The translations under genes were made by a program, and so were the position numbers. Positions 25,247 to 60,858 of a stretch of DNA of 64,000 nt are shown here, in pieces. The notes below the pieces were generated by a model. That model saw only the letters and a list, made by a program, of their open reading frames with translations. It was not told the origin of the DNA and ran no database searches. Source of the DNA: Sphingobacteriales bacterium (GTDB lineage Bacteria; Bacteroidota; Bacteroidia; Chitinophagales; CAIOSU01); assembly GCA_027483645.1 (NCBI GenBank), contig JAIXUD010000023.1, positions 1 to 64,000 on the forward strand, given 5' to 3'. Position 1 is the stretch's first letter. Each line of letters begins with the position of its first letter.

Positions 25247-25320
25247 GGACGCGTAGCTCAGCTGGATAGAGCATCTACCTTCTAAGTAGACGGTCGTGGG
25301 TTCGAATCCCGCCGCGTTCA
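25247..25320 (+). tRNA. tRNA-Arg (anticodon TCT)
   Basis: The cloverleaf is clear. The acceptor stem GGACGCG pairs with CGCGTTC (one G-U), the discriminator is A, and CCA is not encoded. The D-arm contains AGCTCAGCTGGATAGAGC. The anticodon stem TCTAC/GTAGA closes the loop CTTCTAA, so the anticodon is TCT (reads AGA). The T-arm is GTGGGTTCGAATCCCGC. It marks the boundary between backbone genes and the metal-resistance island, so it is a plausible island attachment site. Confidence 0.96.
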
Positions 25321-25328
25321 CACTGCCC

Positions 25329-25368: not shown

Positions 25369-25448
25369 TTTTGGGTTACATGCGGTTTTACATGCGGTAT
25401 TCTTGAATTGGTAAGCGAAATTATTGTATGTGGGGGGGATGATGTATG

Positions 25449-25474
25449 AACCTCTGTAAGGATTGACAAAGGTT
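25449..25474. repeat. dif-like 26-nt inverted-repeat site S1
   Basis: AACCTCTGTA, centre AGGATT, GACAAAGGTT. It lies between the tRNA-Arg and the first metal-resistance gene. This is the only member outside the 36-60 kb segment and a close match to site S10. Confidence 0.5.
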
Positions 25475-35495: not shown

Positions 35496-35651
35496 TTTAA
35501 TATTTCTTCCAAAACCAAGTACTGCAATGCTTTAGTGAAACCAGCGGAAACCACTTCACTTTTTTAGTCCCATTTACATCCTGAAAGCCCCGTAAACGCA
35601 ACAAAGTCGTAACCGTCTGCTATCTTCGGCTAGTACCAACACAAGTTGATT

Positions 35652-36261: not shown

Positions 36262-36287
36262 CACTTCTGTCTTTACTAACAAAAGTG
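36262..36287. repeat. dif-like site S3
   Basis: CACTTCTGTC, centre TTTACT, AACAAAAGTG. The pairing extends outward (CTAC...GTAG). It begins 11 nt after the short recombinase stop. Confidence 0.55.
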
Positions 36288-36345: not shown

Positions 36346-36371
36346 AACTTATGTCATGATTGACAGAAGTA
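36346..36371. repeat. dif-like site S4
   Basis: AACTTATGTC, centre ATGATT, GACAGAAGTA. It lies between the recombinase and the 3' end of the polymerase-like gene. Confidence 0.6.
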
Positions 36372-38561: not shown

Positions 38562-38683
38562 ACTCGTTGTTGTTTTGGTACGAAGCGAGTTTAGCCGTTT
38601 CCGGCGGAACCGGAAAATCGAAACCTCCATAAACAGGGCATTTTAGCGTTTTTTAGCGTTTCGGTAGCTTTAACCTTTGGGGT

Positions 38684-41248: not shown

Positions 41249-41797
41249 ATGCTATCGAAGGTCATCAAGGAAAGGCTGGAACAAAAACTGGGGCACACCG
41301 TGCGCTATCCAAAGGACTGCGATATGCTGGCGGCCGATATTGCCAAGGTGTGTAAATGCCAGCTTAGCGGCAGCACCATGAAAAGGCTCTTCGGCTTTGT
41401 AAAAGGTGGCGGACAGCCTAGGCTCTATACGCTCGACCTGCTCAGTAACTATCTCGGCCACGGTAAATGGGAAGATTTACTGGCCTCGCTAACCGGCCAA
41501 CGGCCTATTCAATCATCCGAAATTGAACACCTGGATATTAACAAGGCCAAAACCGGCAGCACCATAATTATCACGTACGCGCCTGCACGTGAGGTAACTT
41601 TGGAAGTAGTGGAAAAAGGCCGGTTGCGACTGATAGAATCCAACGAACCACTATTGGAAGGTGTCGAAACGGTAAAGTGTACAGAAGTCAAGCTTCACTA
41701 TCCGCTATATCTAGAAATACCTGGTAAGGCATTCGGTGTTTGGCTGGCACAGATAAGTGGCGTTACGTCCATCAAAACCGCGAAACTGGACACATAA
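41249..41797 (+). CDS. hypothetical protein with N-terminal DNA-binding-like helices
   Basis: A 182-residue protein. The N-terminal 85 residues are helical, with a pattern recurrent in Bacteroidota hypotheticals (LSGSTMKRLFGFVKGGGQPR, YTLDLLSNYLGHGKWEDLL) that looks like a helix-turn-helix recognising unit. The C-terminal part (about 100-182) is a small beta domain. The final codons and following bases (from 41782) recur at 51175, just after dif-like site S7. It is a single gene, divergent from the lipoprotein. Confidence 0.6.
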   Translation: MLSKVIKERLEQKLGHTVRYPKDCDMLAADIAKVCKCQLSGSTMKRLFGFVKGGGQPRLYTLDLLSNYLGHGKWEDLLASLTGQRPIQSSEIEHLDINKAKTGSTIIITYAPAREVTLEVVEKGRLRLIESNEPLLEGVETVKCTEVKLHYPLYLEIPGKAFGVWLAQISGVTSIKTAKLDT

Positions 41798-41979: not shown

Positions 41980-42005
41980 AACTTCTGTCGAAACTGACAG
42001 AAGTT
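41980..42005. repeat. dif-like site S5 (best palindrome)
   Basis: AACTTCTGTC, centre GAAACT, GACAGAAGTT: perfect 10-bp arms, 11 bp counting the outer C/G. It lies upstream of the MZA-type defence operon. Confidence 0.7.
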
Positions 42006-42111: not shown

Positions 42112-43554
42112 ATGCATCTTACAAGTGAAAGGGGCGCTGTAAACGCTGAAATTATTAATCCAAGTGTTAAGAATTTTATTGCCTCTTTAAGGGATATAGG
42201 GTACTCATTTGAAGTCGCGGTGTCTGACTTGATAGATAATAGTATAACGGCGGAGGCAACAGAAATTAAAATTCACACAGTTTCCAATCCCCAGTTAACG
42301 TTTAGTTTACTTGATAACGGAACTGGGATGACGGAAAGCGAATTAGTTGAAGCCATGCGCTTAGCTTCAAAAGATCCAAGAAACAAAAGAGCAAAAAACG
42401 ATTTAGGCAGATTCGGTTTAGGATTAAAAACGGCCTCTTTTTCACAAGGTAGGAAGCTAACAGTAGTTTCGAAAAAGCAAGGAATTGTGTCTGTTAGACA
42501 ATGGGATTTAGATTATGTATATGAGAAAGATGAATGGTACCTAATTACGCCCGTGGATTATGAAAAACTACCGTTAGCTGCTGATCTGTTTCTATTAAAA
42601 CAAGGCACATTAATTTGCTGGCAAAATATAGACAGAATTAATAATGACGCATTGTCAGGTATTATTGAACGTTTAAGGAAGCATTTGTCTCTTGTGTTTC
42701 ATCGTTATTTAGAGGGTCTTGAAATGCAGAAATCTTTAAAAATAATTATCAATGACAATCCATTAATCCCCTTTAATCCATTCAATCTAAATCATCCAGC
42801 AACCCAGCAAACTGCTAGTGAAAAGATTAAGATATTTGGATCAACGATTACCATTCAACCATACATATTACCCCACCATTCAAAATTATCCCAACAAGAG
42901 TACGAGTTGTACGCTACAGAAGAAGGGTACATAAAATCTCAAGGCTTTTACTTGTATAGGCAGAATCGAATACTTATATACGGCACTTGGTGGGGGATGC
43001 ACAGAGCCTTAGATGCCCACAAGCTTGTGCGAATCAAAATTGATATCCCAAATGACATGGACACTCATTGGGGCATTGATATAAAAAAGTCTATCGCGCG
43101 TCCTGCGGAAGAGATAAAGAATGATCTTAAGAGAATTATTAAACAAGTTACTGAAAGAGGTTCTAAACCGTTTACTGGTAGAGGTCGAAAAATTGAAGAT
43201 AAGTCTATTGTACAGTTTTGGGAAGTTCGTCCATTAAACAATGATTTTCGCTTTGCTATCAATGAGCAACATCCTTTATTTCAAGACCTAACTAAAAGTC
43301 TTTCTGAGGACACCCTAGAAAAATTGCTCTTTTATCTTAAGGGGGTGCAAGCATACTTACCATTAGAGGCAATACAATTTAACTTGCAGAAGAATCCGCA
43401 TTTAATTAACCAAAATTCTGCATTGACTGAAATGGAGATAATTGAAGTTGCAAAGAAACTTCTCTCCGCTGGGTTATCCGAAGAATACATACGAAATTTA
43501 CTGAAAACAGAAATTTTTTCTAGCCATAAACACCTTTTCCAAAATGGATACTAA
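42112..43554 (+). CDS. MORC/MutL-like GHKL ATPase of MZA-type defence locus
   Basis: A 480-residue GHKL ATPase. The N box is FEVAVSDLIDNSITA (Asp39, Asn43), the G1 box LLDNGTGM (68-74), and the G2 lid LGRFGLGLKTASFSQGR (98-113). The transducer-like region follows with an S5 fold. This is the MutL/MORC-type member described in restriction-like clusters with Z1, DUF4420 and AIPR (Iyer and colleagues; later the MZA system). It probably clamps or senses DNA and drives the complex. It is the first gene of the operon; its last 11 nt overlap the Z1 gene. The operon is visibly A+T-richer than its neighbours. Confidence 0.88.
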   Translation: MHLTSERGAVNAEIINPSVKNFIASLRDIGYSFEVAVSDLIDNSITAEATEIKIHTVSNPQLTFSLLDNGTGMTESELVEAMRLASKDPRNKRAKNDLGRFGLGLKTASFSQGRKLTVVSKKQGIVSVRQWDLDYVYEKDEWYLITPVDYEKLPLAADLFLLKQGTLICWQNIDRINNDALSGIIERLRKHLSLVFHRYLEGLEMQKSLKIIINDNPLIPFNPFNLNHPATQQTASEKIKIFGSTITIQPYILPHHSKLSQQEYELYATEEGYIKSQGFYLYRQNRILIYGTWWGMHRALDAHKLVRIKIDIPNDMDTHWGIDIKKSIARPAEEIKNDLKRIIKQVTERGSKPFTGRGRKIEDKSIVQFWEVRPLNNDFRFAINEQHPLFQDLTKSLSEDTLEKLLFYLKGVQAYLPLEAIQFNLQKNPHLINQNSALTEMEIIEVAKKLLSAGLSEEYIRNLLKTEIFSSHKHLFQNGY

Positions 43555-46243
43555 CAGCTATCAGGCAGTTAAAGCATTTATTTTTAATAAACTTAGCAAG
43601 GTTGAAGCACCTTTACCATATAAGAAAATTGATGAAGAGATAGAAAATATAAAAAAGGTGATTGCCACAATAGGACTTGAAACCTTTGCCCAAATACTGT
43701 CTATTGATCAGTTATGTGAATTGGAAGATCAGGACTGGCTGCGTCTTTCCAAGGAATTGGAAGAGCACTTCGATGTAAAAATGCAAAATGGAATATTAAT
43801 TCAAGGTAATGAACAACGTGATAGAGATACCACTTGGTGGACTAGCATAGAAAAACAAAAAGCAAAAAACTATTATTGGAACAGATATCACGATTATTTA
43901 TCGAAGTCACTTTCACCGGATGTTATTAAAACCATCGATGTTGACACGGATATAGTGATGAATAATCTTGAAAATCCCTATGCACAAAGCTTTTCACGAT
44001 ATGGGATGGTTGTTGGGCATGTGCAGTCAGGAAAAACTGGAAATTATTCAGCTTTAGTATGTAAGGCTGCTGATGCAGGTTACAAGTTTATTGTAGTCAT
44101 AGCAGGGGGCATCAACAACTTAAGAAACCAGACGCAGGAACGTTTAAATGAATCATTTATTGGTCAAACTAACGGTGCGCAAGTTGGTGCCGGCAAGGGA
44201 AATTCTAGCAAGGATACTATGCCTTTAAGCTTAACCACGGTAGAAAGAGATTTTAATAAACAAGATGCAGATAGGCTTTCGCAAGGGTTAAATTTTGATA
44301 ACATCAGTGTACCTATCTTATTGGTAATTAAAAAGCACACCAGAACTTTAGAAAATGTAATTGATTGGCTTCAAAAACAATATAAAAATCAAGTTGTCCA
44401 TCATGCAATGCTTGTTATTGATGATGAATCGGATTATGCTTCAATTAATACAAAGGAAGAAGAAGATCCAACTGCAATAAATAAAAAGTTAAGGAAATTA
44501 TTGAGTCTGTTTCAAAAAAGCGCATATGTTGCTTATACCGCTACCCCTTATGCAAATATTTTTATAGATCATAAAGCAGAAAGTAATGATTTAGGTAGAG
44601 ACCTTTTTCCAAAGGATTTTATTTATGCACTGGATGCACCATCGAACTACTTCGGAGCAAGAAAAATATTTATCGACACTAATAATGCACATTTAGTCCC
44701 TATATCCGACTATGGTGAAAACATACCTTCAGATCATAGAAAAGACCATGTGATAAAACAATTGCCTAACACCCTACTGGAAGCAATTCGTCATTTCCTT
44801 TTAAATATTAGTATTAGGAGCTTAAGAGGGCAAAGGGACAAACACAATAGCATGTTGATTCATGCAACCAGATTCACAGATGTTCATAAATTATTGGGGA
44901 AACAAGTTGAAGACTATCTAACTCTTTTAAGAGAAGAGATTGTCTCCTATGGCAAACTTCCTGATGCCGTTGTTCATGGTAAATTGATCAAGGATATTCA
45001 GGATACTTTCAATAAAAACCATGTGGGGGTTGAATTTAAATGGGAAAAAGTAATTTCAATTTTATCTGACTTAATCGAAACTGTCGTAGTTCGAGAGGTG
45101 CATCAAAAGACATCGGTTCCTCTCGAATACAGAAAAGATTTTGTCACAAATGCTATTGTGGTAGGTGGAACTAGTTTATCTAGAGGATATACCCTGGAAG
45201 GTTTAAGTGTTAGTTATTTTTTAAGAAATACAGTTTTCTATGATACACTTATGCAAATGGGCCGATGGTTTGGTTATAGACAGGGATATGAAGACTTATG
45301 TCGTATTTATATGCCTGATGAGCGAATAACTGATTTTGCCGATATAATAAGGGCCACAGAAGATTTGTTTCAAGATTTTAAATTAATGGCCGAAAACAAA
45401 CGAACACCTAATGATTTTGGTTTGGCAGTACAACAAAATCCTAGTAGTGCTCTTCAAATTACAGCGCGCAACAAACAAAAAAATGTAAAAGATTTTGTAT
45501 TCTCAATGCAGTTGGATGGGCAAGCAAAAGAAACTAGCTATCTAAGAAGTGAGTCAAAGGACATTGAGCATAATATCAATGCAATTAAAAGGCTTTTAGA
45601 TGTTTTACCTGTTCAAAATGCTAATGAAGGTAGTTATGTTTGGCGAGCAGTCAATAAAGATAAAATTAACATATTTTTAAAAGATTTTAGGACGTTTGAT
45701 AATGATAGGATAGGTTTACTTACTCGGATGCCTATTTCATTTATCGAAAAGTATGTTGAAGAAAGAGATACCGATTGGGATATTGCTTTATATAATGGTA
45801 GTGGTAATGAGTTTATTCACAAGGGTATCAAAATAAACAAAGAACTAAGGCAATTTCAATTCAAAGAAAAAGGTAGACTTGCCTCGAAGTATTATGAAGT
45901 ATTAAACAGGCAAGTTTCATCGGGAAATGCAGAATCTATAACAATTGAAGATCCTGTTTTAAAGAAAAGAATTGGAAATAACCGGAGAGCAGCCAGACAG
46001 GCTCTTGCAAGGCCCTTATTAATGTTACATATTCTGGAGCAAAGGTTTCCATTAGAAACTAATAATGAATCTGAGCTATCAGCACCGACCAGTATTATCC
46101 CTGTAAAGGAAATTGCGGCATTTGGAGTAAGTTTTCCAGGGAGTGTGCTTAGCGTTAATACGACAGTAACACTTAAGATAAACACGGTTTATTATCAGAA
46201 TTTACTAGATGAACAGGAATTAGAAGCTGAATATGATGACTAA
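43544..46243 (+). CDS. Z1-domain ATPase/helicase-like protein
   Basis: An 899-residue P-loop protein of the Z1 family. The Walker A is GHVQSGKTGNY (158-168), Walker B VIDDESDYASI, then AYTATPYANIFID and a superfamily-2-like C-terminal lobe (GGTSLSRGYTLEGL, LMQMGRWFGYRQGY). It is expected to translocate on or remodel DNA in the defence complex. It overlaps the gene before and the gene after by 11 nt each, so the stoichiometry is probably translation-coupled. Confidence 0.9.
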   Translation: MDTNSYQAVKAFIFNKLSKVEAPLPYKKIDEEIENIKKVIATIGLETFAQILSIDQLCELEDQDWLRLSKELEEHFDVKMQNGILIQGNEQRDRDTTWWTSIEKQKAKNYYWNRYHDYLSKSLSPDVIKTIDVDTDIVMNNLENPYAQSFSRYGMVVGHVQSGKTGNYSALVCKAADAGYKFIVVIAGGINNLRNQTQERLNESFIGQTNGAQVGAGKGNSSKDTMPLSLTTVERDFNKQDADRLSQGLNFDNISVPILLVIKKHTRTLENVIDWLQKQYKNQVVHHAMLVIDDESDYASINTKEEEDPTAINKKLRKLLSLFQKSAYVAYTATPYANIFIDHKAESNDLGRDLFPKDFIYALDAPSNYFGARKIFIDTNNAHLVPISDYGENIPSDHRKDHVIKQLPNTLLEAIRHFLLNISIRSLRGQRDKHNSMLIHATRFTDVHKLLGKQVEDYLTLLREEIVSYGKLPDAVVHGKLIKDIQDTFNKNHVGVEFKWEKVISILSDLIETVVVREVHQKTSVPLEYRKDFVTNAIVVGGTSLSRGYTLEGLSVSYFLRNTVFYDTLMQMGRWFGYRQGYEDLCRIYMPDERITDFADIIRATEDLFQDFKLMAENKRTPNDFGLAVQQNPSSALQITARNKQKNVKDFVFSMQLDGQAKETSYLRSESKDIEHNINAIKRLLDVLPVQNANEGSYVWRAVNKDKINIFLKDFRTFDNDRIGLLTRMPISFIEKYVEERDTDWDIALYNGSGNEFIHKGIKINKELRQFQFKEKGRLASKYYEVLNRQVSSGNAESITIEDPVLKKRIGNNRRAARQALARPLLMLHILEQRFPLETNNESELSAPTSIIPVKEIAAFGVSFPGSVLSVNTTVTLKINTVYYQNLLDEQELEAEYDD

Positions 46244-47180
46244 TTCTACTAACAACCCTTGGAATAGTATACACAATTCCGCTAAAAGGAGAGTGGATGC
46301 CAAGCATAGGTTTAATATATTTTGGCTCGTTAATGAAAAAGGGAAGTATGGATTAGCGATAATTTTGGATAACCTATATGGTAATTACGAGTTTATTGAT
46401 CATATTAAGGGTGTCTCGATAATTAGGAAGCTTAACAAAAACAGCCCAGGTGAAATATACCTGGTTGTAAACAGAAATGAAGACTGGGAGATATTTTTAG
46501 CATTATGCTTGGATCTAATTCAAGTATCCGCAAAGTGCGAAACTGCTGAAAGATTAATTAAACATGTAAATGGGAGGTTGAAGCGGTGGCAACTATTTTT
46601 AAGCAATGATAATCGTTTAACCCTGTCTTTGCAGAAGCAAATGGGTTTACTGGCAGAGCTAATTGTTTTACGTGATTTAGTTATGCCTTCTTTCCCAATT
46701 TCTTATGGTCTAAATAGCTGGGTTGGTGCAGATTATGACAAACAGGATTTTGCCCTTTCTAATTCTACCTTGGAGGTCAAATCTTACATAACCACTAAAG
46801 GAGAAATCGTAAAAATTTCTTCCTTGCATCAACTTGAGGATCTACGACCTCTTTTTTTGGTTGCTATCGGATTTACAATCAATCCACAAGGAATTTCTAT
46901 ATTAGATGTAATCCATGAAATCAATGAAGAAATTAATGAAGATGACTTTGAAAGCAAGGAAATATTTGACAACAAACTTGCCGCATATGGATATATCGAT
47001 GGAGTTACACCTGAACCATTCTATCAATTCACTTCAGATGCTATTAATGCATATAAGGTAATTGAAGGCTTTCCAAGAATACTGTCTAATGATGTGAAAC
47101 CACAAATATTATCCGTTGAATATACCATTGATCTTCGTCGTTGCTTAGAATTTAGGTTAGAGTTGAATTCCATTTTTTAA
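46233..47180 (+). CDS. DUF4420 (PD-(D/E)XK-like) putative nuclease
   Basis: A 315-residue protein with the DUF4420 pattern: helix QKQMGLLAELIVLRDL, then WVGADYDKQDFAL and STLEVKSYITTKGEIVKI. The E...D...ExK spacing is that of a restriction-endonuclease-like fold. It is probably the DNA-cleaving component of the defence locus. The start overlaps the Z1 gene by 11 nt; a second ATG is the next codon. The AIPR gene begins 12 nt after its stop. Confidence 0.83.
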   Translation: MMTNSTNNPWNSIHNSAKRRVDAKHRFNIFWLVNEKGKYGLAIILDNLYGNYEFIDHIKGVSIIRKLNKNSPGEIYLVVNRNEDWEIFLALCLDLIQVSAKCETAERLIKHVNGRLKRWQLFLSNDNRLTLSLQKQMGLLAELIVLRDLVMPSFPISYGLNSWVGADYDKQDFALSNSTLEVKSYITTKGEIVKISSLHQLEDLRPLFLVAIGFTINPQGISILDVIHEINEEINEDDFESKEIFDNKLAAYGYIDGVTPEPFYQFTSDAINAYKVIEGFPRILSNDVKPQILSVEYTIDLRRCLEFRLELNSIF

Positions 47181-47192
47181 ACAATCAAAAGT

Positions 47193-49232
47193 ATGTCCAG
47201 TTTAGTAGATTTTCATGAAGACTTTATACAGTCTATATTAAGCGACGCGGAAAGCAGGGGTATCATGAAGCCTGAGTCCTTCTTTGAAATAGTTTGTCAA
47301 GAGCTGGTAAATGTTGGTGATTTAACTAGCGATTATTCTTCTGCAGAATACATCAAACGTGGTATGGAAGTATATGGCTATGATTATGACAGCGAAAGAA
47401 AGATTCTGACTTTGTTAAGCCACCACTTTTTTCAAGAGGAAGTATTACAGACATTGACTTTAGGCCAAATTGAAACTAAGTTTAACCGGTTAAAAGGTTT
47501 TTTCACAAAATGCTCGGAAGGTTTTTATAACACGCTGGAGGAAACGTCCGAAGCATTCTCAATGGCGTACAACATTTACAAACATATTGAGAAGGGTAAT
47601 ATTACCAAAGTGAAATTAATGGTATTAACTGATGGTAGGGCATCACGAAATTTAACAGAGCTTCCTTCGGAAATCATTAAATCTATCCAGTATGAGTATA
47701 GAGTAATCGATATTGAATACTTATATAAAATTTACGAATCGTCTTCTAAAACTGCTGAATTTGACATTGATGTTAATATGAAGTGCTTACAAGTAAATGA
47801 TGAAAATGATTCTTACCAATCTTATCTATCGGTTATTAGTGGTGACTTACTAGTTCAGATATATGAGGCGCATGGTCAACGTCTTTTTGAACAAAACGTG
47901 CGTACTTTCCTACAGTTCAGAGGCAACGTAAATAAAGGGTTAAAAAATACTATTGAATGGAAACCAGAAATGTTTTTTGCTTATAACAACGGAATTACGG
48001 CAACCGCTACCTCGGTAGATTTAGACTTAGATGGAAACATAAAAAAAATTAAAAACTTCCAGATTGTAAATGGCGGTCAAACTACTTCTGCCATTTATGC
48101 TGCGAAGAAAAATTCCAACCTCTCGGTTTCAAAAATTGCGGTGCAAATGAAACTATCTGTTGTAAAAAGACAGGAACAGCAAGATGAATTTGTTTCAAAG
48201 GTGGCTGAATACGCCAACACTCAAAATAAAATCAATAACTCTGATTTCTTTTCGAATAGTCCTTTCCATAAGGATATGAAGGACTATGCAAACCGGATAT
48301 TTGCTCCTGCTGTCGGAGGTTCGCAAAGAAGAACACATTGGTTCTATGAAAGAGTACGAGGAGAGTACTTAAACTCACAAGCGTATTTACGTCCTGATGA
48401 AAAAAGAAAATTCCTTCTAGAAAATCCCAAAGCTCAAGTTATAGATAAAACCCTTCTTTCAAAGACCGAAATTGCATGGGGACTACGACCAGATATTGTT
48501 TCAAAAGGGGCTCAGGAAAGCTTTAAAAAATTCGCTGAAGAAATTACCGATACACTAGAAAAGGATGATTTAGCTATTACAGAATCTTATTTTAAGGATG
48601 CTGTTTGCCGAGTAATCCTTTTCAGAGAGGTAGAAAAAATGATAACGAGAGCATCGTGGTATGATGGTGGATTTAGAGCTCAAACTGTTGCATATACCAT
48701 CGCTTATCTTTCGGCTCTGGTAAAACATTCCACATGGCATTTAAATTTTAATTTAATCTGGGAGACGCAAGCTATTCCTGAAAATCTGAAAAGCATCTTG
48801 GAAGTTATTGCTGAGAATGTGTATCAAAAAATAACTCGCCCCCCAAGTGGATATGCCAACGTTTCCCAGTGGACAAAAAATGCTGGTTGTTGGGATAAGG
48901 TAAAAGATATTGATATTGATGTAGAATTTAGCCCTGAGTTATTGACTGCACCTCAAGAAAGGCAATATATTAAGAAGGAAAGCAAACAAGTCAAAAGCGT
49001 TGATAAAGGAATCGATGTACAAATTTTTGTTGTTAACGTTAATACAGATGATTGGATTAGACTCTTTGACTACTACAATTCATTTAAATCAAACACCATA
49101 ATCAATCCTACTCAATTAGAAATTCTCAGGAAGATGTCATGCCGAAGCATCACCTTACCGTCAGAAAAGCAATCCAAAATTCTGTATGATTTATATGTCA
49201 ATGCAAAAAAAGAAGGCTTAGCGGTGTCATAA
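47193..49232 (+). CDS. AIPR-family protein
   Basis: A 679-residue protein with the AIPR (abortive infection phage resistance) core: MFFAYNNGITATATSVDL and FQIVNGGQTTSAIYAAKK, then QMKLSVVKRQEQQDEFVSKV and EYANTQNKINNSDFF. AIPR proteins occur in phage-defence loci with Z1 and MORC ATPases. Biochemical function is unclear; a DNA- or modification-recognition role is possible. It is the fourth gene of the operon, 92 nt before the methyltransferase. Confidence 0.88.
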   Translation: MSSLVDFHEDFIQSILSDAESRGIMKPESFFEIVCQELVNVGDLTSDYSSAEYIKRGMEVYGYDYDSERKILTLLSHHFFQEEVLQTLTLGQIETKFNRLKGFFTKCSEGFYNTLEETSEAFSMAYNIYKHIEKGNITKVKLMVLTDGRASRNLTELPSEIIKSIQYEYRVIDIEYLYKIYESSSKTAEFDIDVNMKCLQVNDENDSYQSYLSVISGDLLVQIYEAHGQRLFEQNVRTFLQFRGNVNKGLKNTIEWKPEMFFAYNNGITATATSVDLDLDGNIKKIKNFQIVNGGQTTSAIYAAKKNSNLSVSKIAVQMKLSVVKRQEQQDEFVSKVAEYANTQNKINNSDFFSNSPFHKDMKDYANRIFAPAVGGSQRRTHWFYERVRGEYLNSQAYLRPDEKRKFLLENPKAQVIDKTLLSKTEIAWGLRPDIVSKGAQESFKKFAEEITDTLEKDDLAITESYFKDAVCRVILFREVEKMITRASWYDGGFRAQTVAYTIAYLSALVKHSTWHLNFNLIWETQAIPENLKSILEVIAENVYQKITRPPSGYANVSQWTKNAGCWDKVKDIDIDVEFSPELLTAPQERQYIKKESKQVKSVDKGIDVQIFVVNVNTDDWIRLFDYYNSFKSNTIINPTQLEILRKMSCRSITLPSEKQSKILYDLYVNAKKEGLAVS

Positions 49233-49324
49233 AACATCACTGCCGAAGCTAATAATCAATTATTGTACTTATTTTTAGTGTTTTTTGATAATATTTTTTC
49301 GACAATTGCAAAGACCAACTAATA

Positions 49325-50386
49325 GTGGAAGTCACTAATCGCATCGGAGTAGACATTTTCAGTGGTGCTGGCGGCTTAAGTTTAGGCGCTGAAATGGCTG
49401 GTATTAAAATAGCTATAGCCGTTGAAAGAGATACTGCTGCCGCTAAAACATTCGCCAAAAACCACCCTAATGCACAAGTAATTTGTGAAGATATCACTCA
49501 AATTGATCCGCTAAATTTCGTAAAGAAAAATCCTTTCATAGTATTTGGCGGTCCTCCTTGTCAAGGCTTTTCGTTATCGAATACAAAAACAAGAACGTCC
49601 GATAACATCAATAATTCTCTATTCTTGGAATTTGTCCGCTTTGTAAAAGTTTTAAAGCCAAAATGGTTTCTATTTGAAAATGTTGAAGGAATTAAATATT
49701 TTAATAAGGGCAAAACAGTCCAAGAAATCAAAGACTGTTTTAGAGAAATTGGTTATGTAACTACGGAAGATGTGTTGTATGCATCAGATTATGGCGTCCC
49801 TCAACATCGCAATCGTTTCTTTATGGTCGGAAATCGACTAGATATTGATTTTAAATTTCCTAGGAAGTATAATTCAAAAGTTTGTGTAAATGACGCCATT
49901 TCGGACCTACCCGATTTGCAAAATGGCGATAGCTTTATGGAATTGCCATATAAAGATGGTATTCAGGATGTGAGTACTTATGCAAAAGCCATGCGAAAAA
50001 AATCCGATCGCTCGAAGCAAAATTTTGTTTCTAAAAACATGGATTATATTCTGGAACGCTATAAATACATTAAGCAAGGAGAGAATTGGAGAGCCATACC
50101 ATCAAATTTAATGCAAAACTACGCTAATGTTGAAAATTGTCATAGTGGCATATATAAACGTTTAGATGCTTCATTACCTTCGGTCGTTATCTCTAATTAC
50201 AGAAAGAATATGCTAATACATCCTAATCAAGATAGAGGATTATCGGTTAGGGAAGCAGCGCGTTTGCAAAGTTTTCCAGATGATTTCATTTTTGAAGGAA
50301 GCCTAATGCATATTCAGCAGCAAATTGGTAATGCAGTACCACCGTTATTAGCAAAAGCAATTTTTAAAAAAATCTTGTCATACTGA
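49325..50386 (+). CDS. DNA cytosine-5 methyltransferase of defence locus
   Basis: A 353-residue C5-methyltransferase with motif I GVDIFSGAGGLSLGAEMAG, catalytic motif IV VFGGPPCQGFS (Cys79), motif VI FLFENVEGI, motif VIII-like DYGVPQHRNRFFMVG and motif X QQIGNAVPPLLAKAI. It probably protects host DNA from the linked nuclease; recognition specificity cannot be read. The start is a GTG (49325); no better in-frame ATG lies upstream. It is the last gene of the locus. Confidence 0.9.
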   Translation: MEVTNRIGVDIFSGAGGLSLGAEMAGIKIAIAVERDTAAAKTFAKNHPNAQVICEDITQIDPLNFVKKNPFIVFGGPPCQGFSLSNTKTRTSDNINNSLFLEFVRFVKVLKPKWFLFENVEGIKYFNKGKTVQEIKDCFREIGYVTTEDVLYASDYGVPQHRNRFFMVGNRLDIDFKFPRKYNSKVCVNDAISDLPDLQNGDSFMELPYKDGIQDVSTYAKAMRKKSDRSKQNFVSKNMDYILERYKYIKQGENWRAIPSNLMQNYANVENCHSGIYKRLDASLPSVVISNYRKNMLIHPNQDRGLSVREAARLQSFPDDFIFEGSLMHIQQQIGNAVPPLLAKAIFKKILSY

Positions 50387-50523
50387 TATTTAACTGTCGG
50401 TATTATCGTGTGTGCATGCATAAGTTGATTTGGTCAACCCTAGCAACACTTAACACCCCGGCCTTGCTTCCAATACTCTATTTTCATTCGGACTCGCCAG
50501 AACAGCCCATAGTAACCCGTTTC

Positions 50524-50549
50524 AACTTCTGTCTGTTTTAACAGAAGTT
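50524..50549. repeat. dif-like site S6
   Basis: AACTTCTGTC, centre TGTTTT, AACAGAAGTT. It closes the defence module on the right and overlaps the stop codon of the convergent 50548-51093 gene. Confidence 0.65.
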
Positions 50550-51148: not shown

Positions 51149-51174
51149 AACCTCTATTAATACTGACAAAGGTT
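51149..51174. repeat. dif-like site S7
   Basis: AACCTCTATT, centre AATACT, GACAAAGGTT. The left arm is diverged. It is immediately followed (51175) by the 23-nt repeat shared with 41782. Confidence 0.5.
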
Positions 51175-52013: not shown

Positions 52014-52170
52014 CTAAGTTTATACAGTTTTATATTATTGCAGAATCCCTTCGTTTCGGGAAGTTTAAATGCGGTTGAGTCTATGGTATAGTCTATAGAG
52101 AGGCACCGAAACTTAAAGATGTATTATCCTAAACCTCGCATAGCGAAAGACCACATCCCAATATGAAGCT

Positions 52171-52187
52171 GTTTTCGTGAGCCGTGG
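52171..52187 (+). repeat. GTTTTCGCCAGCCGTGG-family repeat (copy a)
   Basis: GTTTTCGTGAGCCGTGG, two mismatches from the exact 17-mer. It is followed by AGGCCTTGCCGTAAG as in copies b and c. Its start is 94 nt before site S8. The gap 52014-52380 holds no gene, only this module and a terminator. Confidence 0.6.
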
Positions 52188-52264
52188 CGCTACATGACGC
52201 CCAGGCCTTGCCGTAAGCACCCTAAACGGGTCAGGACTCACCAAAACCCGCGCACGGTTAAAAG

Positions 52265-52290
52265 AACTTATGTCGTTTCCGACAGAAGTC
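52265..52290. repeat. dif-like site S8
   Basis: AACTTATGTC, centre GTTTCC, GACAGAAGTC. Confidence 0.6.
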
Positions 52291-52330
52291 GTACTGGTTT
52301 AGTTTCAACTTTCTTCGCGAGCAAAACAAA

Positions 52331-52364
52331 GCCCCGGCAATCACTAATAGTGACTAGCGGGGGC
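52331..52364 (-). terminator. terminator of ParB-like gene
   Basis: On the minus strand a long interrupted hairpin (GCCCCCGCTAGTCACTA pairing with TAGTGATTGCCGGGGC), followed by TTTGTTTTG, just past the 52381 stop. Confidence 0.65.
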
Positions 52365-52380
52365 ACCAAAAACAAAAGTA

Positions 52381-53022
52381 TTAAGTGGCCGACAATTCTT
52401 CGTCGTTATCGTCTTCATCTGCCAGTGCCTCAATGTGAGCTTGGTACAGGCTCAGGTTGCCAGCGCTTACCCGCGTTATGAGGTCGTCCCTATCCAGCCA
52501 ATAAAGGTCGGCGACCATCCTGACCTCTCGCTCATCCTCTATTAGTGTCTCGGCCAGGAATGTTATCAGGCCTTCCCTGCTGCCGTCGTCGTTGCGTGCA
52601 TAGAACAAAGGTCCACCTTCATCGTACAGCGCCAATAGCTGTGCCAGCGTCCGTGTCCGGCTGGTCTCTGGCAGCGCCTCGCGGTTTAGAATCCTCTTGA
52701 TTGCCTCGAGGTTGCCGTAATCCACGTACAGTATCAATCCTTGCAGTTCGTCCTGACCTGCGATAACGGCATCGCGGAAGGACGATATGTTACCGATAAG
52801 GTCGAACATCCCTGTATCCGTATCCGGAATCAGCACGGGGTAGTTCCTATAACGGCCTGATTTGAGGCAGGGCTCCAAGATAACATCAACGTTAGCCTTG
52901 ACCGGATGGGCCAGGGTCGTGTTAAGGCTAATCATCTTAAGAGGTATGGTAAGATCGGGTACCACCGCTATCCCTGTTCTTTCTTCGCCCAGCTTGGCTA
53001 GGCCATTTCTTGTTTCAACCAT
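52381..53022 (-). CDS. ParB-like domain protein, paralogue 1
   Basis: A 213-residue protein with a ParB-like central core (YPVLIPDTDTGMFDLIGNIS, FRDAVIAGQDELQGLILYVD), then KRILNREALPETSRTRTLAQ, FYARNDDGSREGLITFLAE and an acidic tail (DEDDNDEE). It is a clear paralogue of the 53557 gene: NREALP, DDGSxE and the acidic tail align. The 5' leaders of the two genes are also similar (TACTATCGAGTTTAGCAG at 53066-53083), supporting this start. It is alone between S8 and S9. The role is unknown; a specificity factor or DNA-binding adaptor for the methyltransferases is one guess. Confidence 0.6.
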   Translation of the reverse strand: MVETRNGLAKLGEERTGIAVVPDLTIPLKMISLNTTLAHPVKANVDVILEPCLKSGRYRNYPVLIPDTDTGMFDLIGNISSFRDAVIAGQDELQGLILYVDYGNLEAIKRILNREALPETSRTRTLAQLLALYDEGGPLFYARNDDGSREGLITFLAETLIEDEREVRMVADLYWLDRDDLITRVSAGNLSLYQAHIEALADEDDNDEELSAT

Positions 53023-53190
53023 GATTATTGTTTTAAAAGGTTTGATAAATTACCATCGAAGTGGTACTATCGAGTTTAGCAGAGATGATTGACAAAAGGT
53101 AATGTCACTTAAAAAAACTTCCTGGGTCTGTCATCTGAAACCGCTTCTGATTAACCTGGTTATTGCCGAGCACGGTCTAGAAAATAGGAT

Positions 53191-53207
53191 GTTTTCGCCA
53201 GCCATGT
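53191..53207 (+). repeat. GTTTTCGCCAGCCGTGG-family repeat (copy b)
   Basis: GTTTTCGCCAGCCATGT, two mismatches from the 17-mer. It is followed by GGGCCTTGCTGTAGATACTC. It starts 96 nt before S9, and similarity to copy c runs on for about 220 nt. The gap 53023-53556 has no credible gene. Confidence 0.65.
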
Positions 53208-53286
53208 TGCGACATATTGCGAGGGCCTTGCTGTAGATACTCTTATACCGTTTAGATAGGCCGGGATTGACGATACAAGACCGGAA

Positions 53287-53312
53287 CACTTCTGTGAGGT
53301 CTCACAGAAGTT
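53287..53312. repeat. dif-like site S9
   Basis: CACTTCTGTG, centre AGGTCT, CACAGAAGTT. Pairing extends into the centre, giving an 11-bp stem (53288-53311). Confidence 0.6.
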
Positions 53313-53477
53313 ATATTGACCACAATATCTCTTCCTTGACCTTGACACGATGAATGTAATGTCTAGCCGGCGTGGAATGTACCTCTAATCTAGGCCTTTA
53401 ATGTGGCCCTGAAGTGTGTTTCAAAAACAGATTCTAAATACCTCTGAACTCTAAAATTCAATAGCCCAAATAAGAAG

Positions 53478-53503
53478 GACCTCTGTCGGATTTGACAAAG
53501 GTC
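53478..53503. repeat. dif-like site S10
   Basis: GACCTCTGTC, centre GGATTT, GACAAAGGTC. Only one base per arm fails to pair. It lies 53 nt downstream of the stop of the second ParB-like paralogue. Confidence 0.6.
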
Positions 53504-53556
53504 CAAGTTCTTTTTCAAGTCGCTAGACGATAGCCTTTCATTGCGTCTTATATTCA

Positions 53557-54210
53557 TTACTCTTCATCACCTTCTAATTCATCGTTGGCCCTGTATTCTT
53601 CATCCTCTTCCGCAGTAGCTTCATCAAAAGCCTCATGGATGCCAATTTCCCCCTCGTACAACAACTCTTTTAAGTCATCTCTATTTCGCCAATGGATGCC
53701 GGTGGCGCTTAATATCTTCTCGACATCCTCATTGAGTAAGGCCGCAAGAAAATCGTAAAGCGCTTCTTGACTACCGTCGTCCTGCCTAACAAAAAATCCC
53801 TGACCCATTCGACCATAGAAATCTATCAACTTGAACAATGTTTCATAATGTTCTCTCAGTGGTAAAGCTTCCCTATTAAGCGCCCTGCGAAAAGCAGGGA
53901 TCAATGCTGGATCTAGATTGACCACTACCGCTGGTAACGTTGCTGTGCCGGTTTGAATTGCTTCTTTAAAAATGTGCACGTTACCAATTAGGTAATATCC
54001 CCCAGACTCATCGGGGACCAAAACCGCCAATTTGTTGTATTCATAAAATCTTTTACCTAGTCCTAGCAAGCACTGTAAGTCCGCGGTAACAGGATATGCA
54101 GTTGGCATAGCAAGACGGATTTCGTTAACCGCCACTGTAGTTATGTAGGCCAGGCCCTCAGGCTCAACAGATAATCCCAAATTCTCAAGTAACTTTTTCA
54201 CTTTTTTCAT
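53557..54210 (-). CDS. ParB-like domain protein, paralogue 2
   Basis: About 217 residues from MKKVKKLLENLGLSVEPEG. The core resembles paralogue 1: LAVLVPDESGGYYLIGNVH, FKEAIQTGTATLPAVVVNLD, RRALNREALPLREHYETLF, FFVRQDDGSQEALYDFLA and the acidic end (EEDEEYRANDELEGDEE). The frame is open 37 codons further (54321), but that stretch overlaps a leader conserved with paralogue 1 (TTATCGAGTTTAGCAG), so 54210 is the better start. It is the single gene of the S10-S11 module. Confidence 0.6.
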   Translation of the reverse strand: MKKVKKLLENLGLSVEPEGLAYITTVAVNEIRLAMPTAYPVTADLQCLLGLGKRFYEYNKLAVLVPDESGGYYLIGNVHIFKEAIQTGTATLPAVVVNLDPALIPAFRRALNREALPLREHYETLFKLIDFYGRMGQGFFVRQDDGSQEALYDFLAALLNEDVEKILSATGIHWRNRDDLKELLYEGEIGIHEAFDEATAEEDEEYRANDELEGDEE

Positions 54211-54396
54211 GTTTTTGAATTTAAAGGTTTCAATAATCACCATCTCAATGGTATTATCGAGTTTAGCAGGTAACCGCGACAAAAGGGAACTACTCTTAAA
54301 AAAACTTCCGGGTGCTGCCATAAAAATCCACTTCCAATGGACTTAGCTGTTACTCGGCCAAGCCGAACCGGTTAGGCATGAATCAGAAATAAGGAT

Positions 54397-54413
54397 GTTT
54401 TCGCCAGCCGTGG
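54397..54413 (+). repeat. GTTTTCGCCAGCCGTGG repeat (copy c, exact)
   Basis: An exact 17-mer, 96 nt before S11. It is followed by GGGGCCTTGCTGTAAGTACT, closely matching copy b. Confidence 0.7.
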
Positions 54414-54492
54414 TACGTAATATGACGGGGGCCTTGCTGTAAGTACTCTTATGCCATTTGGACTGGTCAGGATTGACCATACACGACCGATA

Positions 54493-54518
54493 CACTTTTG
54501 TCAAGATTTACAGAAGTC
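54493..54518. repeat. dif-like site S11
   Basis: CACTTTTGTC, centre AAGATT, TACAGAAGTC. Confidence 0.55.
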
Positions 54519-54613
54519 ATATCGACAATAACATCTCTTTTACCTTGGCCTGATGAAGCAACACTTAACCGACTTGGATGTACCATAGGATTAGACCGTT
54601 GAAAGTGTGATCA

Positions 54614-54790
54614 GGTGCGTGAAGGGGGTATCCCTATAAGGTGCTTTAAGGTTAAGTCCTGTTCATTACACCTTTAGACTAGGTAAATGTATAGAATGGG
54701 TTAACTCTGCCTATCTAAGATCTTAATAGATATTAAACCAGGGATTTTACACATAATTTTTTATGCGCCGGCTAGGTATTTTGTTTCGGA
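54614..54790 (+). repeat. long leader repeat, copy 1
   Basis: It runs from GGTGCGTGAAG through AGATCTTAATAG and ACACATAATTTTTTATGC to GGTATTTTGTTTCGG. It aligns with 55522-55731. It stands upstream of the 55015 gene, so it may hold that gene's promoter. The whole gap 54211-55014 otherwise has no gene. Confidence 0.6.
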
Positions 54791-55014
54791 TTTAACGCTA
54801 ACAAATCGCTAACAACTTTGAATAAAATAACTTCTTCCCCGACTGCCAAAAATTGTATGTTCGGAAGTGGCCAGCTTGCTTGACCAAGCTCAAATTACAA
54901 GCCAGAGACAGGAAGACACTAATTACCCAGAGGCAAAACGAAGAAAAAGGAAACGAATTGCTTCCCAATGGACGGTATGTTTGCCATCTTCGCTACACTA
55001 CAAACCAAAGATAC

Positions 55015-55287
55015 ATGCCTATGGAAACATTCAAACCCGCAGACGGAATGACAATAGAGGAATTGTGGGAAGCGAAAATGAAGATACTTATGAAGTACGA
55101 TGTACTTGAAATATACGAGGACGATGGTACCGTAGCGGGTAAATCAGGCTGGGATGATTTGCAAGAGATGTTGCAATACTATCTAGAAAGGGAGGAGTAC
55201 CGGTACTGTGCGGTGATAAAGAAAAAGATTAAAAGGTACGAGCGTATGTGGCCGGCAGCAGAAAAAAATATAACCAGCGCATCTTAA
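55015..55287 (+). CDS. small hypothetical acidic/helical protein
   Basis: About 90 residues, starting MPMETFKPADGMTIEELWEA, then KMKILMKYDVLEIYEDDGTV and a helical C-terminus (LQEMLQYYLEREEYRYCAVI, KKKIKRYERMWPAAEKN). No family is recognised. The frame is open upstream to 54853, but that part is not protein-like. The stop codon overlaps the left arm of site S12. It is the only gene of the S11-S12 module. Confidence 0.5.
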   Translation: MPMETFKPADGMTIEELWEAKMKILMKYDVLEIYEDDGTVAGKSGWDDLQEMLQYYLEREEYRYCAVIKKKIKRYERMWPAAEKNITSAS

Positions 55288-55311
55288 CTTCTGTCAACTA
55301 TGACAAGAGTC
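55286..55311. repeat. dif-like site S12
   Basis: AACTTCTGTC, centre AACTAT, GACAAGAGTC. It overlaps the stop of the preceding gene. Confidence 0.55.
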
Positions 55312-55322
55312 CGCAACGGGCT

Positions 55323-55409
55323 GTTTTCGTAGGCCATGGTGACACCAAAACAATTTGATAGGTTTGCGACAGACGGTCATTGTTTGAACTTGCCACGGCT
55401 GGCGAAAAC
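55323..55409. repeat. GTTTTCGCCAGCCGTGG repeats in inverted pair (copies d)
   Basis: A degenerate forward copy (GTTTTCGTAGGCCATGG, 55323-55339) faces an exact copy on the minus strand (55393-55409), so the 87-nt interval could fold as a long hairpin. Confidence 0.6.
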
Positions 55410-55451
55410 GAACCCAAAGGATTAATTGTTCACTTAGGCATCAAGACAAGC

Positions 55452-55477
55452 CTCTTATGTCTGTCCTGACAAAGGTT
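55452..55477. repeat. dif-like site S13 (weak left arm)
   Basis: CTCTTATGTC, centre TGTCCT, GACAAAGGTT. Confidence 0.4.
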
Positions 55478-55521
55478 AAACCCAACAGTTTACTTACTTG
55501 ATTTTAATTGTTAGGCGAGTC

Positions 55522-55731
55522 GGTGCGTGAAGCGTTACAAGACAGTAAAAGAGATTACTGGGTTAGGCCATTATACAAGATTAGTGTACTACTTCTGTTA
55601 ACCCATTAAATCCTATAAGGCTAGGTAAGTGGGTTAACGCTGCTGTCTTAAGATCTTAATAGTTATAAAACCAGGAGTTTCACACATAATTTCTTATGCA
55701 CGAGGCAGGTATTTTGTTTCGACTACGGTGC
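55522..55731 (+). repeat. long leader repeat, copy 2
   Basis: A second copy of the 54614-54790 leader (GGTGCGTGAAG, AGATCTTAATAG, ACACATAATTTCTTATGC, GGTATTTTGTTTCG). It includes a half dif-like site (TACTTCTGTT, 55590-55599). No gene follows it, so this module appears empty. The gap 55288-56180 (893 nt) contains only repeats and a terminator. Confidence 0.6.
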
Positions 55732-55905
55732 ACCAATTACGCTAAATAATTACTAAAAAATTAAAATATCCTTAACGAACTGCCAAAAGTTGTTGGTACA
55801 GCAAATGAATGGCAACCACCAAACTATGATTACCCTCGCGGCATACGATTGCAGTTAATCGTATCAATACTGGCGCTGCTGCTTCTATCTTTTTAGAATG
55901 AGACC

Positions 55906-55922
55906 GTTTTCGCCAGCCGTGG
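55906..55922 (+). repeat. GTTTTCGCCAGCCGTGG repeat (copy e, exact)
   Basis: An exact 17-mer. The sequence after it drifts from copies a-c (GGGAGCCTTATTGTTGATGC) and no 26-nt site was found within 120 nt. Confidence 0.65.
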
Positions 55923-56122
55923 CACATCCTTGCGCGGGAGCCTTATTGTTGATGCACATATAAATTATCGGTCCACCGAGGCTTACCTAAACAACCCGAG
56001 GCTTTCGTTCCATGCAGCTTACCCGCTAAAGGGCACTGTGGTGGAAGATTTCGAAGTGCCGAGCCTCGGGAAACAGCATGCAACGGATAACGTGAGCGGT
56101 GGGTTAGGCCCAATTTAAAAGA

Positions 56123-59091: not shown

Positions 59092-59376
59092 TCAAGAAAC
59101 TCTTTTTAAAAAATCTTCCAAAGCGGCCTTATCCCACAACGCTCGACGCCCTACCCTGAATGGTTTCGGTAATTTGCCCGATTTGATATGGTTGTGGATT
59201 GTTTGCCGCGAACATTTCAGGTAGCTTGAAAGGGTTTCTATAGTCATTACCTCGCTTTCTTGGCGCTGTGGCGGGGTTGGCTTGTTCGCCTTCTCGATTT
59301 CTCTTGATAGCTCTTCCCTGATCAGCAACCGTAACTGGCCCACTGTTAAAGTCACCAACATCTGTTCGTTGTTCAT
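59092..59376 (-). CDS. excisionase-type helix-turn-helix protein
   Basis: About 94 residues. The C-terminal half is a MerR/Xis-like winged helix: VMTIETLSSYLKCSRQTIHN, HIKSGKLPKPFRVGRRALWD, KAALEDFLKRVS. The N-terminal part is a helix (GQLRLLIREELSREIEKANK). This is the small HTH protein that accompanies Bacteroidota integrases and controls excision direction. MNNEQM at 59376 is taken as start; ten more codons are open upstream. It is divergent from the integrase gene, about 220 nt apart. Confidence 0.8.
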   Translation of the reverse strand: MNNEQMLVTLTVGQLRLLIREELSREIEKANKPTPPQRQESEVMTIETLSSYLKCSRQTIHNHIKSGKLPKPFRVGRRALWDKAALEDFLKRVS

Positions 59377-59469
59377 CGCTCTACGTGTGCTTGTGTAATC
59401 AGGCAACTATTGGTTGCCGTCGAAATGGTTAGGATAAGTATAGCCAATAACCGGTTTGAGAGGACAACC

Positions 59470-59495
59470 CACCTTTGTTAATAAAGACAGAAGTT
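59470..59495. repeat. dif-like site S15
   Basis: CACCTTTGTT, centre AATAAA, GACAGAAGTT. It lies between the excisionase-like gene and the integrase gene. Confidence 0.5.
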
Positions 59496-59598: not shown

Positions 59599-60858
59599 AT
59601 GGCGAACATCACATTCTTTTTGGAGAAACGTAAGGACAAATCTGGCAAGGTCAAGATTAAGAACGTGCCTATCCACCTGTACTTCACCTTCAACGCACAT
59701 AGGCTGCTCTTTTATACCGGGGAGCGCATCGATGCCGACAAGTGGGACGTAAGAAAAGAACAGGTAAAAGCGGGCGTAACCGGGCGCGCTGAGATCAATC
59801 TGTTGCTTCAGAGCCAAGCAGAGTTCCTGTTAAAGACTTACAGGGAAGCGCTCATCACCAATACCACCATTTCCTCCGAGTATATCAAGTCGAAGTTTAA
59901 CGAGTACAAGTACCACTCCCTTCCAAAGGAAGACAAGGGCATGATGCACCTGATGGATGAATGGATAGAAATAAAGAAAAGGACCATCAGCCACGGTTAT
60001 TACAAGCACCTGTTGGTATTAAGGAACCATATTAGGAATTTCGTCAAGGGCACCGGGGCAAGGGCAGATTTCAACGATATCGACCTTGCTTGGATGGAAT
60101 CGTTACAAGGTTACTTGGTAGGGCAGGGGGACACGCATAATACGGTATCCAACATCATCCAGAAATTCAAGACGTTCTTGAACCACGCGGCCAAGAACGG
60201 ACACAACAAGAACGTGCGTTACAAAGATTACAAGATTTCGTGGAAGAAGGGCGAGGTTATCTACCTGACTTGGGAAGAGCTGCTTGCTTTCTACCAGACA
60301 CCCATGCCGAGCGTAACCCTGGAACAGGTGAGGGATGTGTTCAGCTTTGCTTGCTTCTCTGGCATGCGCTACGGCGACCTTAGAAACCTCACGAAGGATT
60401 CCGTGCACGAGGACCACATCAGGTACAACATGGCCAAGACGAGACAACAGCTTAACCATACGATACCCCTGAACGACTACAGCAAGGAAATACTAGGGAA
60501 GTATAGAGACTATCCTGGCAAGAAAGCCTTACCGGTAATATCCAACCAGAAGATGAACGATTACCTCAAGGAAGTGGGCAAGGTTGCCGGTCTTGACTAT
60601 CCGATAACGGTGGTGCGCATTAGGGGTTCGGAAAGAATAGTAATCACCAAGCCGAAATACGAGTGGCTGACCTCGCACGTGGGCAGGAAAACCTTTATAA
60701 CCAACGCCCTGCAAAAGGGTATCATTGCCGAGGTAGTAATGGGCATATCGGGCCATGCAGACACCAAATCGTTCAAGCATTACTTTACCATATCAGAAGA
60801 GCACAAAAGCCGCGAGATGTCACGCCACTTTTCGAGAGAATTTACTATCAAGGAATAG
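59599..60858 (+). CDS. tyrosine-type site-specific integrase (Bacteroidota type)
   Basis: A 419-residue integrase of the family carried by Bacteroidota conjugative and mobilisable elements. An N-terminal arm-binding region (about 1-105) is followed by a SAM-like core domain (about 110-205; TISHGYYKHLLVLRNHIRNF). The catalytic domain has Arg in SGMRYGDLRNLT, Lys in AKTRQQLNHTIPL, the His/Arg segment SHVGRKTFITNAL, His in GISGHADTKSFKHY, and Tyr in that same segment. It probably mobilises the island or the inner segment. It lies at the right edge of the accessory segment. Confidence 0.93.
   Translation: MANITFFLEKRKDKSGKVKIKNVPIHLYFTFNAHRLLFYTGERIDADKWDVRKEQVKAGVTGRAEINLLLQSQAEFLLKTYREALITNTTISSEYIKSKFNEYKYHSLPKEDKGMMHLMDEWIEIKKRTISHGYYKHLLVLRNHIRNFVKGTGARADFNDIDLAWMESLQGYLVGQGDTHNTVSNIIQKFKTFLNHAAKNGHNKNVRYKDYKISWKKGEVIYLTWEELLAFYQTPMPSVTLEQVRDVFSFACFSGMRYGDLRNLTKDSVHEDHIRYNMAKTRQQLNHTIPLNDYSKEILGKYRDYPGKKALPVISNQKMNDYLKEVGKVAGLDYPITVVRIRGSERIVITKPKYEWLTSHVGRKTFITNALQKGIIAEVVMGISGHADTKSFKHYFTISEEHKSREMSRHFSREFTIKE

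Follow-up and report, generated by a model that had tools for sequence, protein, structure and literature searches.

A repeated sequence block at a fixed distance from palindromic core sites in a tRNA-bordered genomic island: a candidate half attachment site for a tyrosine integrase

Results

The window analyzed here comprises bases 1-64000 of contig C17 (185,043 bases) of genome G000, and our subject is a repeated 17-mer within it, GTTTTCGCCAGCCGTGG, together with the 26-nt palindromic sites near which it recurs, referred to below as cores. The cores are imperfect 10-N6-10 palindromes with a consensus of about AACYTCTGTC-N6-GACARARGTT. Searching 120 kb of the contig with a looser pattern (AACYTNTGTNNNNNNNNACANARGTT, up to 2 mismatches) yielded 16 cores between positions 25449 and 80823 and none in five base shuffles. 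These cores partition approximately 55 kb downstream of a tRNA-Arg (TCT) gene (25247-25321, plus strand), which forms the left border of the island and lies to the left of its nearest core (25449-25474). The contig has 2 matches to the catalytic domain PF00589. One belongs to a 419-aa tyrosine integrase (59599-60858, plus strand), with an arm-binding domain (PF17293, 23.1 bits, narrowly above the cut-off of 22.6), a SAM-like domain (PF13102, 53.9 bits) and the catalytic domain (39.6 bits), the latter two also above cut-off. Its gene stands head to head with that of a 104-aa excisionase-like helix-turn-helix (HTH) protein (59092-59406, minus strand; HTH_17, 41.7 bits against a cut-off of 27; phrog_66), and a core (59470-59495) lies between the two, 103 nt from the integrase gene. 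The other match belongs to a tyrosine recombinase of approximately 198 aa (35646-36251, plus strand) that contains little beyond the catalytic domain. Because the contig has only these 2 PF00589 matches, 13 of its 15 core-to-core intervals contain no tyrosine-recombinase match (serine recombinases were not searched).

The first-pass annotation of this DNA had reported three exact and three variant copies of the 17-mer, which we recovered. Five places match with up to 3 mismatches, against 0.14 expected in shuffles: the exact copies at 54397 (plus), 55393-55409 (minus) and 55906 (plus), and copies with 2 mismatches at 52171 and 53191, both on the plus strand. The sixth, at 55323 (plus), has 4 mismatches. 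The distances of 94, 96 and 96 nt that had been noted between the start of the 17-mer and three neighboring sites also hold when measured from the 26-nt cores at 52265, 53287 and 54493. We found that the 17-mer is one end of a block of approximately 100 nt lying 94 to 98 nt from the core, and we refer to block and core together as a composite. Composite a (52165-52290, plus) contains the 17-mer at 52171-52187, GGCCTTGCCGTAAG and the core at 52265-52290; composite b (53185-53312, plus) the 17-mer at 53191-53207, GGCCTTGCTGTAGA and the core at 53287-53312; and composite c (54391-54518, plus) the exact 17-mer at 54397-54413, GGCCTTGCTGTAAG and the core at 54493-54518. The element GGCCTTGCTGTAAG is not significant alone, with 12 matches against 6.3 expected and 6 of 100 shuffles reaching 12. 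The block also contains an inverted repeat, made up of GTTTTCGCCAGCC and, further downstream, a segment similar to GGACTGGCCAGGATTGAC.

Three further linked copies keep a spacing of 97 to 98 nt, so that the refuting condition set in the first-pass annotation, a spacing lost in other copies, turned out in favor of the repeated unit. Composite d includes core 68059, which is located outside the 64-kb window and has a 17-mer copy with 3 mismatches at 97 nt. Composite e (50421-50549, plus; core 50524-50549) retains GGCCTTGC and has a decayed 17-mer at 50427, also 97 nt from the core, with 6 mismatches, hardly fewer than the 7 to 9 that occur by chance beside other cores; this pair rests on the whole block, which is found with an E-value of 3.8e-07 when it is left out of the profile. 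Composite f (55286-55415, minus) is a reversed pair that the first reading had overlooked, with the core at 55286-55311 and the exact minus-strand 17-mer (55393-55409) 98 nt away on its right side. This same 17-mer faces the 4-mismatch variant at 55323, so that two copies oppose each other at 55.3 kb as had been proposed, and the unit between 55286 and 55452 is therefore a rough inverted repeat. A seventh block, g (55900-56003, plus), contains the exact 17-mer at 55906-55922 and the accessory block without a recognizable core at the expected place. The repeated unit of approximately 120 nt proposed in the first-pass annotation is thus extended from three copies to six linked pairs, of which five (50524, 52265, 53287, 54493 and 68059) share one orientation and one (55286) is reversed, plus one core-free block.

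When profiles of the core-free block were built from six copies, the seventh was recovered every time (E 2.6e-18 to 3e-6), and over 120 kb of the contig these leave-one-out profiles found no further place at E up to 10 (f was also weakly matched on the other strand). The three originally described copies alone produce a profile that finds the blocks at 50422, 55904 and 67957 and misses the reversed one. In pairwise comparisons without the core, none of 300 shuffles reaches the observed score for 15 of the 21 pairs; block e compared alone with d, f and g is unconvincing (12, 79 and 11 of 300 shuffles, respectively). Composites b and c are 78% identical in DNA over 155 nt including the core. When up to 3 mismatches are allowed, the 17-mer occurs at 32 places across the whole G000 genome and its reversed control at 15. 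Two of the places outside the array, inspected by eye, resemble coding sequence, and at loci covering 30 of the 32 places the block profile gave only weak matches (E 0.05 to 1.2) outside the seven array places. A DNA-similarity search for the composite in 60 genomes returned only G000, at 2 places. Two public viral contigs with an exact 17-mer and one with a perfect core were considered, and as the array was absent from the stretches inspected, we took these matches as chance.

The block is one-sided and its orientation follows the core, not the genes. We compared 58 core flanks against a null distribution in which 0.1% of pairs reach a score of 18 and the maximum is 21. In the array between 50 and 68 kb, matches scoring at least 19 pair a left flank with a left flank, with two exceptions: the b/c pair, whose right flanks also have approximately 90 nt in common, and the unit from 55286 to 55452, which matches itself in reverse complement. 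The interval between core 41980 (41980-42005, a perfect 10-N6-10 palindrome) and core 50524 holds an MzaBCDE-like anti-virus operon, with homologues of MzaB, MzaC, MzaD and MzaE and a C5 cytosine methylase (42112-50386, plus strand). Two minus-strand genes without family match (52381-53022 and 53557-54321) are paralogues whose proteins are 33% identical over 187 aligned columns. No transposase was found among the Pfam matches of the 20 open reading frames (ORFs) scanned between 40.3 and 63.8 kb; no dedicated search for insertion sequences was made.

Cores are clustered on one contig not only in G000 but also in genomes G140, G144, G162 and G637. With the strict core pattern and 1 mismatch, 13 of 396 genomes of the order were positive (own included) against 16 with the reversed control (hand count), and in a class-level sample of 395 genomes an exact match to the looser pattern was found in 4 (own included) against 6 control genomes. 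Since counts of single cores in other genomes are at control level, only the clusters carry weight. The strict pattern gave two places on one contig in G140 and G162, besides G000, and the looser one gave five cores on contig C15 of G140, four on two contigs of G144 and two in G162, where up to 0.2 per contig are expected by chance; in G637, two cores are clear and a third match is weaker. No copy of the 17-mer with up to 4 mismatches accompanies the 11 cores of G140, G144 and G162, nor does one with up to 6 accompany the two of G637, and the block is therefore known only from the G000 island.

Two cores in G140 and G144 mark, exactly or to within about 25 nt, points at which homology switches. 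The right flanks of cores 20991 (G140) and 21097 (G144 C62) match over all 150 nt, and their left flanks stay below a score of 16; under laxer scoring the homology begins 24 nt to the left of the core, with unrelated sequence beyond. Cores 20436 (G140) and 10331 (G144) begin a common stretch of 176 nt (83.5% identity) that consists of the core and a block, after which DNA similarity ends. Similar blocks in these genomes (G144 C62 18987-19071, G140 C15 20488-20572 and G144 C133 10215-10304) end near the start codons of the following genes, and two of the three show, by eye, a hairpin-like CGC-AGGTA-GCG motif with a paired flanking change. The tRNA gene on C133 of G144 is a tRNA-Asp and not the tRNA-Arg of G000. 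Cargo is common to genomes of different taxonomic families (G000 and G162): a 182-aa protein (gene at 41249-41797, 182 nt short of core 41980) has a G162 counterpart at 43% identity, the gene for which terminates approximately 50 nt from core 10043, and the gene at 37854-38630 has a G162 relative at 40% identity. Separately, two genes in the segment 56181-57855 of the window have DNA matches on the G140 array contig in the same order, one for a methylase and the other ParB-like, the latter match being weak (E 0.02).

Integrase genes, and HTH genes with them, also lie beside cores in these genomes. In G162, the integrase stop codon overlaps a core by 2 nt and an HTH-like gene precedes the integrase; in G637, the integrase is 427 nt from a core, with an HTH_17 gene between the two (27.0 bits, at cut-off); and in G144, it is 3.5 kb from a core and preceded by an HTH-like gene. 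These three integrases are 24% to 29% identical to the 419-aa integrase of G000 and have the SAM-like and catalytic domains. The arm-binding domain PF17293 is above cut-off in G000, G162 and G637 and below it in G144 (20.0 against 22.6 bits). Close relatives of the 419-aa integrase (E <= 1e-75) were found in 1 of the 396 genomes of the order, its own, scoring at most the 4 best candidates per genome; relatives at E <= 1e-30 occur in 4 of 40 genomes, own included. Of 42 loci drawn from a set of 80 with integrase relatives at 34% to 40% identity, 7 showed recurring 10-N6-10 palindromes near the integrase, with no common sequence.

At the borders of the G000 island, direct repeats TTACATGCGG-TT-TTACATGCGG occupy 25376-25397, 51 nt outside core 25449, and TTACATGCGS-TT-TTACATGCGS repeats are present in both outer flanks, at 25376 and 80880. 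To the right of core 80823, pieces of the tRNA-Arg (81031 and 81065) and of its downstream sequence (81159) recur. These features fit an island that would have grown by repeated integration. The 200 nt to the right of core 80823 contain a tandem GCATGTAA repeat and align with 200 nt of contig C1 to the left of a core-like site (250216); they are a second kind of one-sided accessory block.

The remaining features of the array are as follows. The small recombinase gene has its stop codon 10 nt before core 36262-36287; cores 36346-36371 and 53478-53503 have no accessory block; and the sites at 51149-51174, from the core-pattern search, and 55452-55477, with 6 of 10 arm pairs, are weak. A stretch of 31 nt is shared by cores 36262 and 59470 (90% identity) with opposite orientations, as would suit the two ends of an inverted segment. 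To the right of core 54493 is a second repeated module (54697-54788), with other copies at 55630-55721 and C17 67780-67932. The units at 55452 and 67354 resemble gene-less miniature units, bounded on one side by this second module and on the opposite side by the 17-mer block. An inverted repeat of approximately 170 nt with AAGCTGTTTCAAA-type ends (C17 67615-67786), resembling a miniature inverted-repeat transposable element (MITE), interrupts a unit.

Discussion

The composite is, on balance, probably one half of an attachment site, a core with an accessory arm, at the unit ends of an accreted island. The 26-nt palindrome would be the core at which a tyrosine integrase cuts and exchanges strands, with the 419-aa integrase or a relative of it the presumed enzyme. 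The block of approximately 95 nt that ends in the 17-mer would be a one-sided arm bound by the arm-binding domain of the integrase, by the excisionase-like HTH protein or by both, with the 17-mer as a predicted protein-binding site, and this binding would fix the spacing between block and core. The island downstream of the tRNA-Arg would have grown through repeated integration of units at cores, and if each unit kept its arm, arms would recur at unit ends whatever gene lies inside. Units without an integrase gene would then have been moved in trans. The proposal in the first-pass annotation of a recombination site with an accessory protein-binding element is thus supported by the fixed spacing, the orientation that follows the core, the breakpoints at cores and the integrases beside them. 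A half site is, however, more likely than the complete site that it proposed, and 10 of the 16 cores lack the block.

That absence also weighs against an arm-dependent integrase, since the blockless cores include 59470, beside the integrase, where an arm model predicts arms. Several other observations point in the same direction. The N6 spacers of the 16 cores are all different when read on the plus strand (that of 68059 on the minus strand equals that of 25449), and canonical integrases are not known to tolerate differing core spacers, whereas CTnDOT-type ones partly do. The array contig of G140 has no relative of the 419-aa integrase. Among 80 loci with integrase relatives at 34% to 40% identity, three (L058, L083 and L119) have a single weak core match and none has a cluster. 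For the HTH genes of G144 and G162, most Pfam models give scores at their cut-offs or lower, with MerR_1 just over the cut-off in the former and just under it in the latter, and HTH_17 below it in both. Finally, a small recombinase also adjoins the array, in G000 and in G140.

An unlikely alternative is that the 198-aa recombinase owns the array in the manner of an integron and that the composite is its complete attC-like cassette site. G140 and G144 hold homologues 62% to 64% identical to it, and their arrays have the same core, to which in G000 its stop codon is so close. Upstream of the small-recombinase genes, an 11-N7/8-11 palindrome is present in 12 of 13 loci (in G000 at 35469), and a wider second palindrome (11-N18-11 or similar) follows 91 to 96 nt further on in 6 of the 13, a spacing similar to that of the composite; because the half-sites were picked visually in those very stretches, these counts are not independent, and G295 was left out. 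However, the upstream palindrome differs from the array core and varies from one homologue to the next, as would be expected of a private site; it reads AAGTCCYACTT-N7/8-AAGTGGGACTT in G140 and G144 and is looser in G000. A de novo search for palindrome families at 14 small-recombinase loci gave array-like ones only in G000, although the cores of the G140 array are too dissimilar for it to have detected them. G162 has cores but no homologue of the small recombinase at E <= 1e-40, and none is present on the G637 contig, the only part of that genome considered. The best plasmid and phage relatives of this protein, below 60% identity, carry no annotation more specific than integrase or tyrosine-type or site-specific recombinase. 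In our reading the upstream palindrome is private to the small enzyme; as owner of the cores we favor the 419-aa integrase, with moderate confidence.

The block could also be an expression signal, a promoter or 5' leader carried by the units, which we consider quite improbable. The promoter module suggested by the first-pass annotation suits three of the seven blocks: a, b and c lie about 157 to 185 nt upstream of minus-strand genes (for c using a start at 54211 that we chose; the ORF-list start at 54321 is 75 nt away). In G140 and G144, the different block beside the cores extends, by eye, to the start codon of the following genes, and that block may have a role in expression there. The other four G000 blocks do not fit. 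Block e directly follows the stop codon of the convergent plus-strand methylase gene. In the 500 nt on the matching side and strand of f and g, no ORF reaches 100 aa; at d, the only one there, of 105 aa, overlaps the MITE-like repeat. Since the block follows the orientation of the core rather than that of the genes, a general promoter is disfavored.

We regard it as very unlikely that the block acts as a structured RNA, as had also been suggested at first, or as a single-stranded hairpin site. The 17-mer can pair with a segment approximately 64 nt downstream (86% of cells pair, against at most 59% when slid), both arms are altered together in copy a, and 7 of the 29 pairs of the consensus fold still pair with both sides changed. 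Column shuffles do equally well, however, with 188 of 500 reaching the paired fraction and 102 of 500 the covariation score, and the covariation term of the consensus fold is unfavorable. Folding z-scores for ten strands range from -0.2 to -2.9 as RNA (three below -2) and from -1.0 to -2.7 as DNA (two below -2), and in most copies the arms pair only slightly better than with shuffled partners. At gathering thresholds, Rfam matched nothing but a tRNA in the 64-kb window, which together with the pair counts argues against a structured RNA; the inverted symmetry would fit two inverted protein sites equally well. The repeats can hardly be mere by-products of unit duplication and decay. Such an origin would suit the paralogous genes next to b and c, the sequence that these two composites have in common left and right of the core, and the resemblance of the 55452 and 67354 units to gene-less copies of each other. 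However, the spacing is kept at a, d and e, which flank other content, and the b/c DNA is far more similar than the encoded proteins (78% against 33%).

If the composite is indeed a half attachment site, the island may tentatively be regarded as a second platform for cassette capture that evolved independently in Bacteroidota. On this possible but doubtful extension, an integrase with an arm-binding domain, together with an excisionase, would stockpile small, integrase-free units, a defense operon included, at degenerate palindromic cores, and a standard arm of approximately 100 nt would permit their movement in trans; the system would be analogous to integrons but would use double-stranded, arm-assisted sites. 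If the reading as a half attachment site is right, one integrase could add or remove single genes and a defense operon in these bacteria as discrete units, core and block would offer a direct sequence handle for unit borders, cargo and hosts, and the question of how an arm-dependent integrase works on many cores with different spacers would become testable. Among the matches listed from the open-licence literature, judged by titles and the beginnings of abstracts, we found no description of such an array in Bacteroidota, which is a weak absence.

The array resembles integrons in that units are separated by palindrome-bearing sites which, where the block is present, are approximately 120 nt long and mostly in one orientation (5 of 6). 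In contrast to integrons, neither array recombinase is near the cut-off of an integron-integrase model (no integrase_gron match for either; NF040815 46.7 bits for the small and 37.0 bits for the large one, cut-off 220), and one unit is multigenic and spans approximately 8 kb. As for a conserved attC-like hairpin, inverted symmetry is present in our sites but covariation is not above shuffles. Composite islands that accrete in tandem at tRNA genes likewise have a tRNA border, tRNA pieces at the far end and internal repeated attachment-like sites; the G000 island differs from them by its many small units and by an accessory block repeated on one side of six sites. The IntCTnDOT subgroup, with CTnDOT, NBU1 and SGI1 among its members (PMC8138268), and with tandem arrays known for SGI1 (PMC2297512), shares with our array a tyrosine integrase with an arm-binding domain, an excisionase-like partner gene and a core with accessory sequence. 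Unlike the elements of that subgroup, many units here lack a tyrosine recombinase and consist of single genes or an operon, the core spacers differ, and the arm-type sites are predicted from geometry, a core with a block 94 to 98 nt away.

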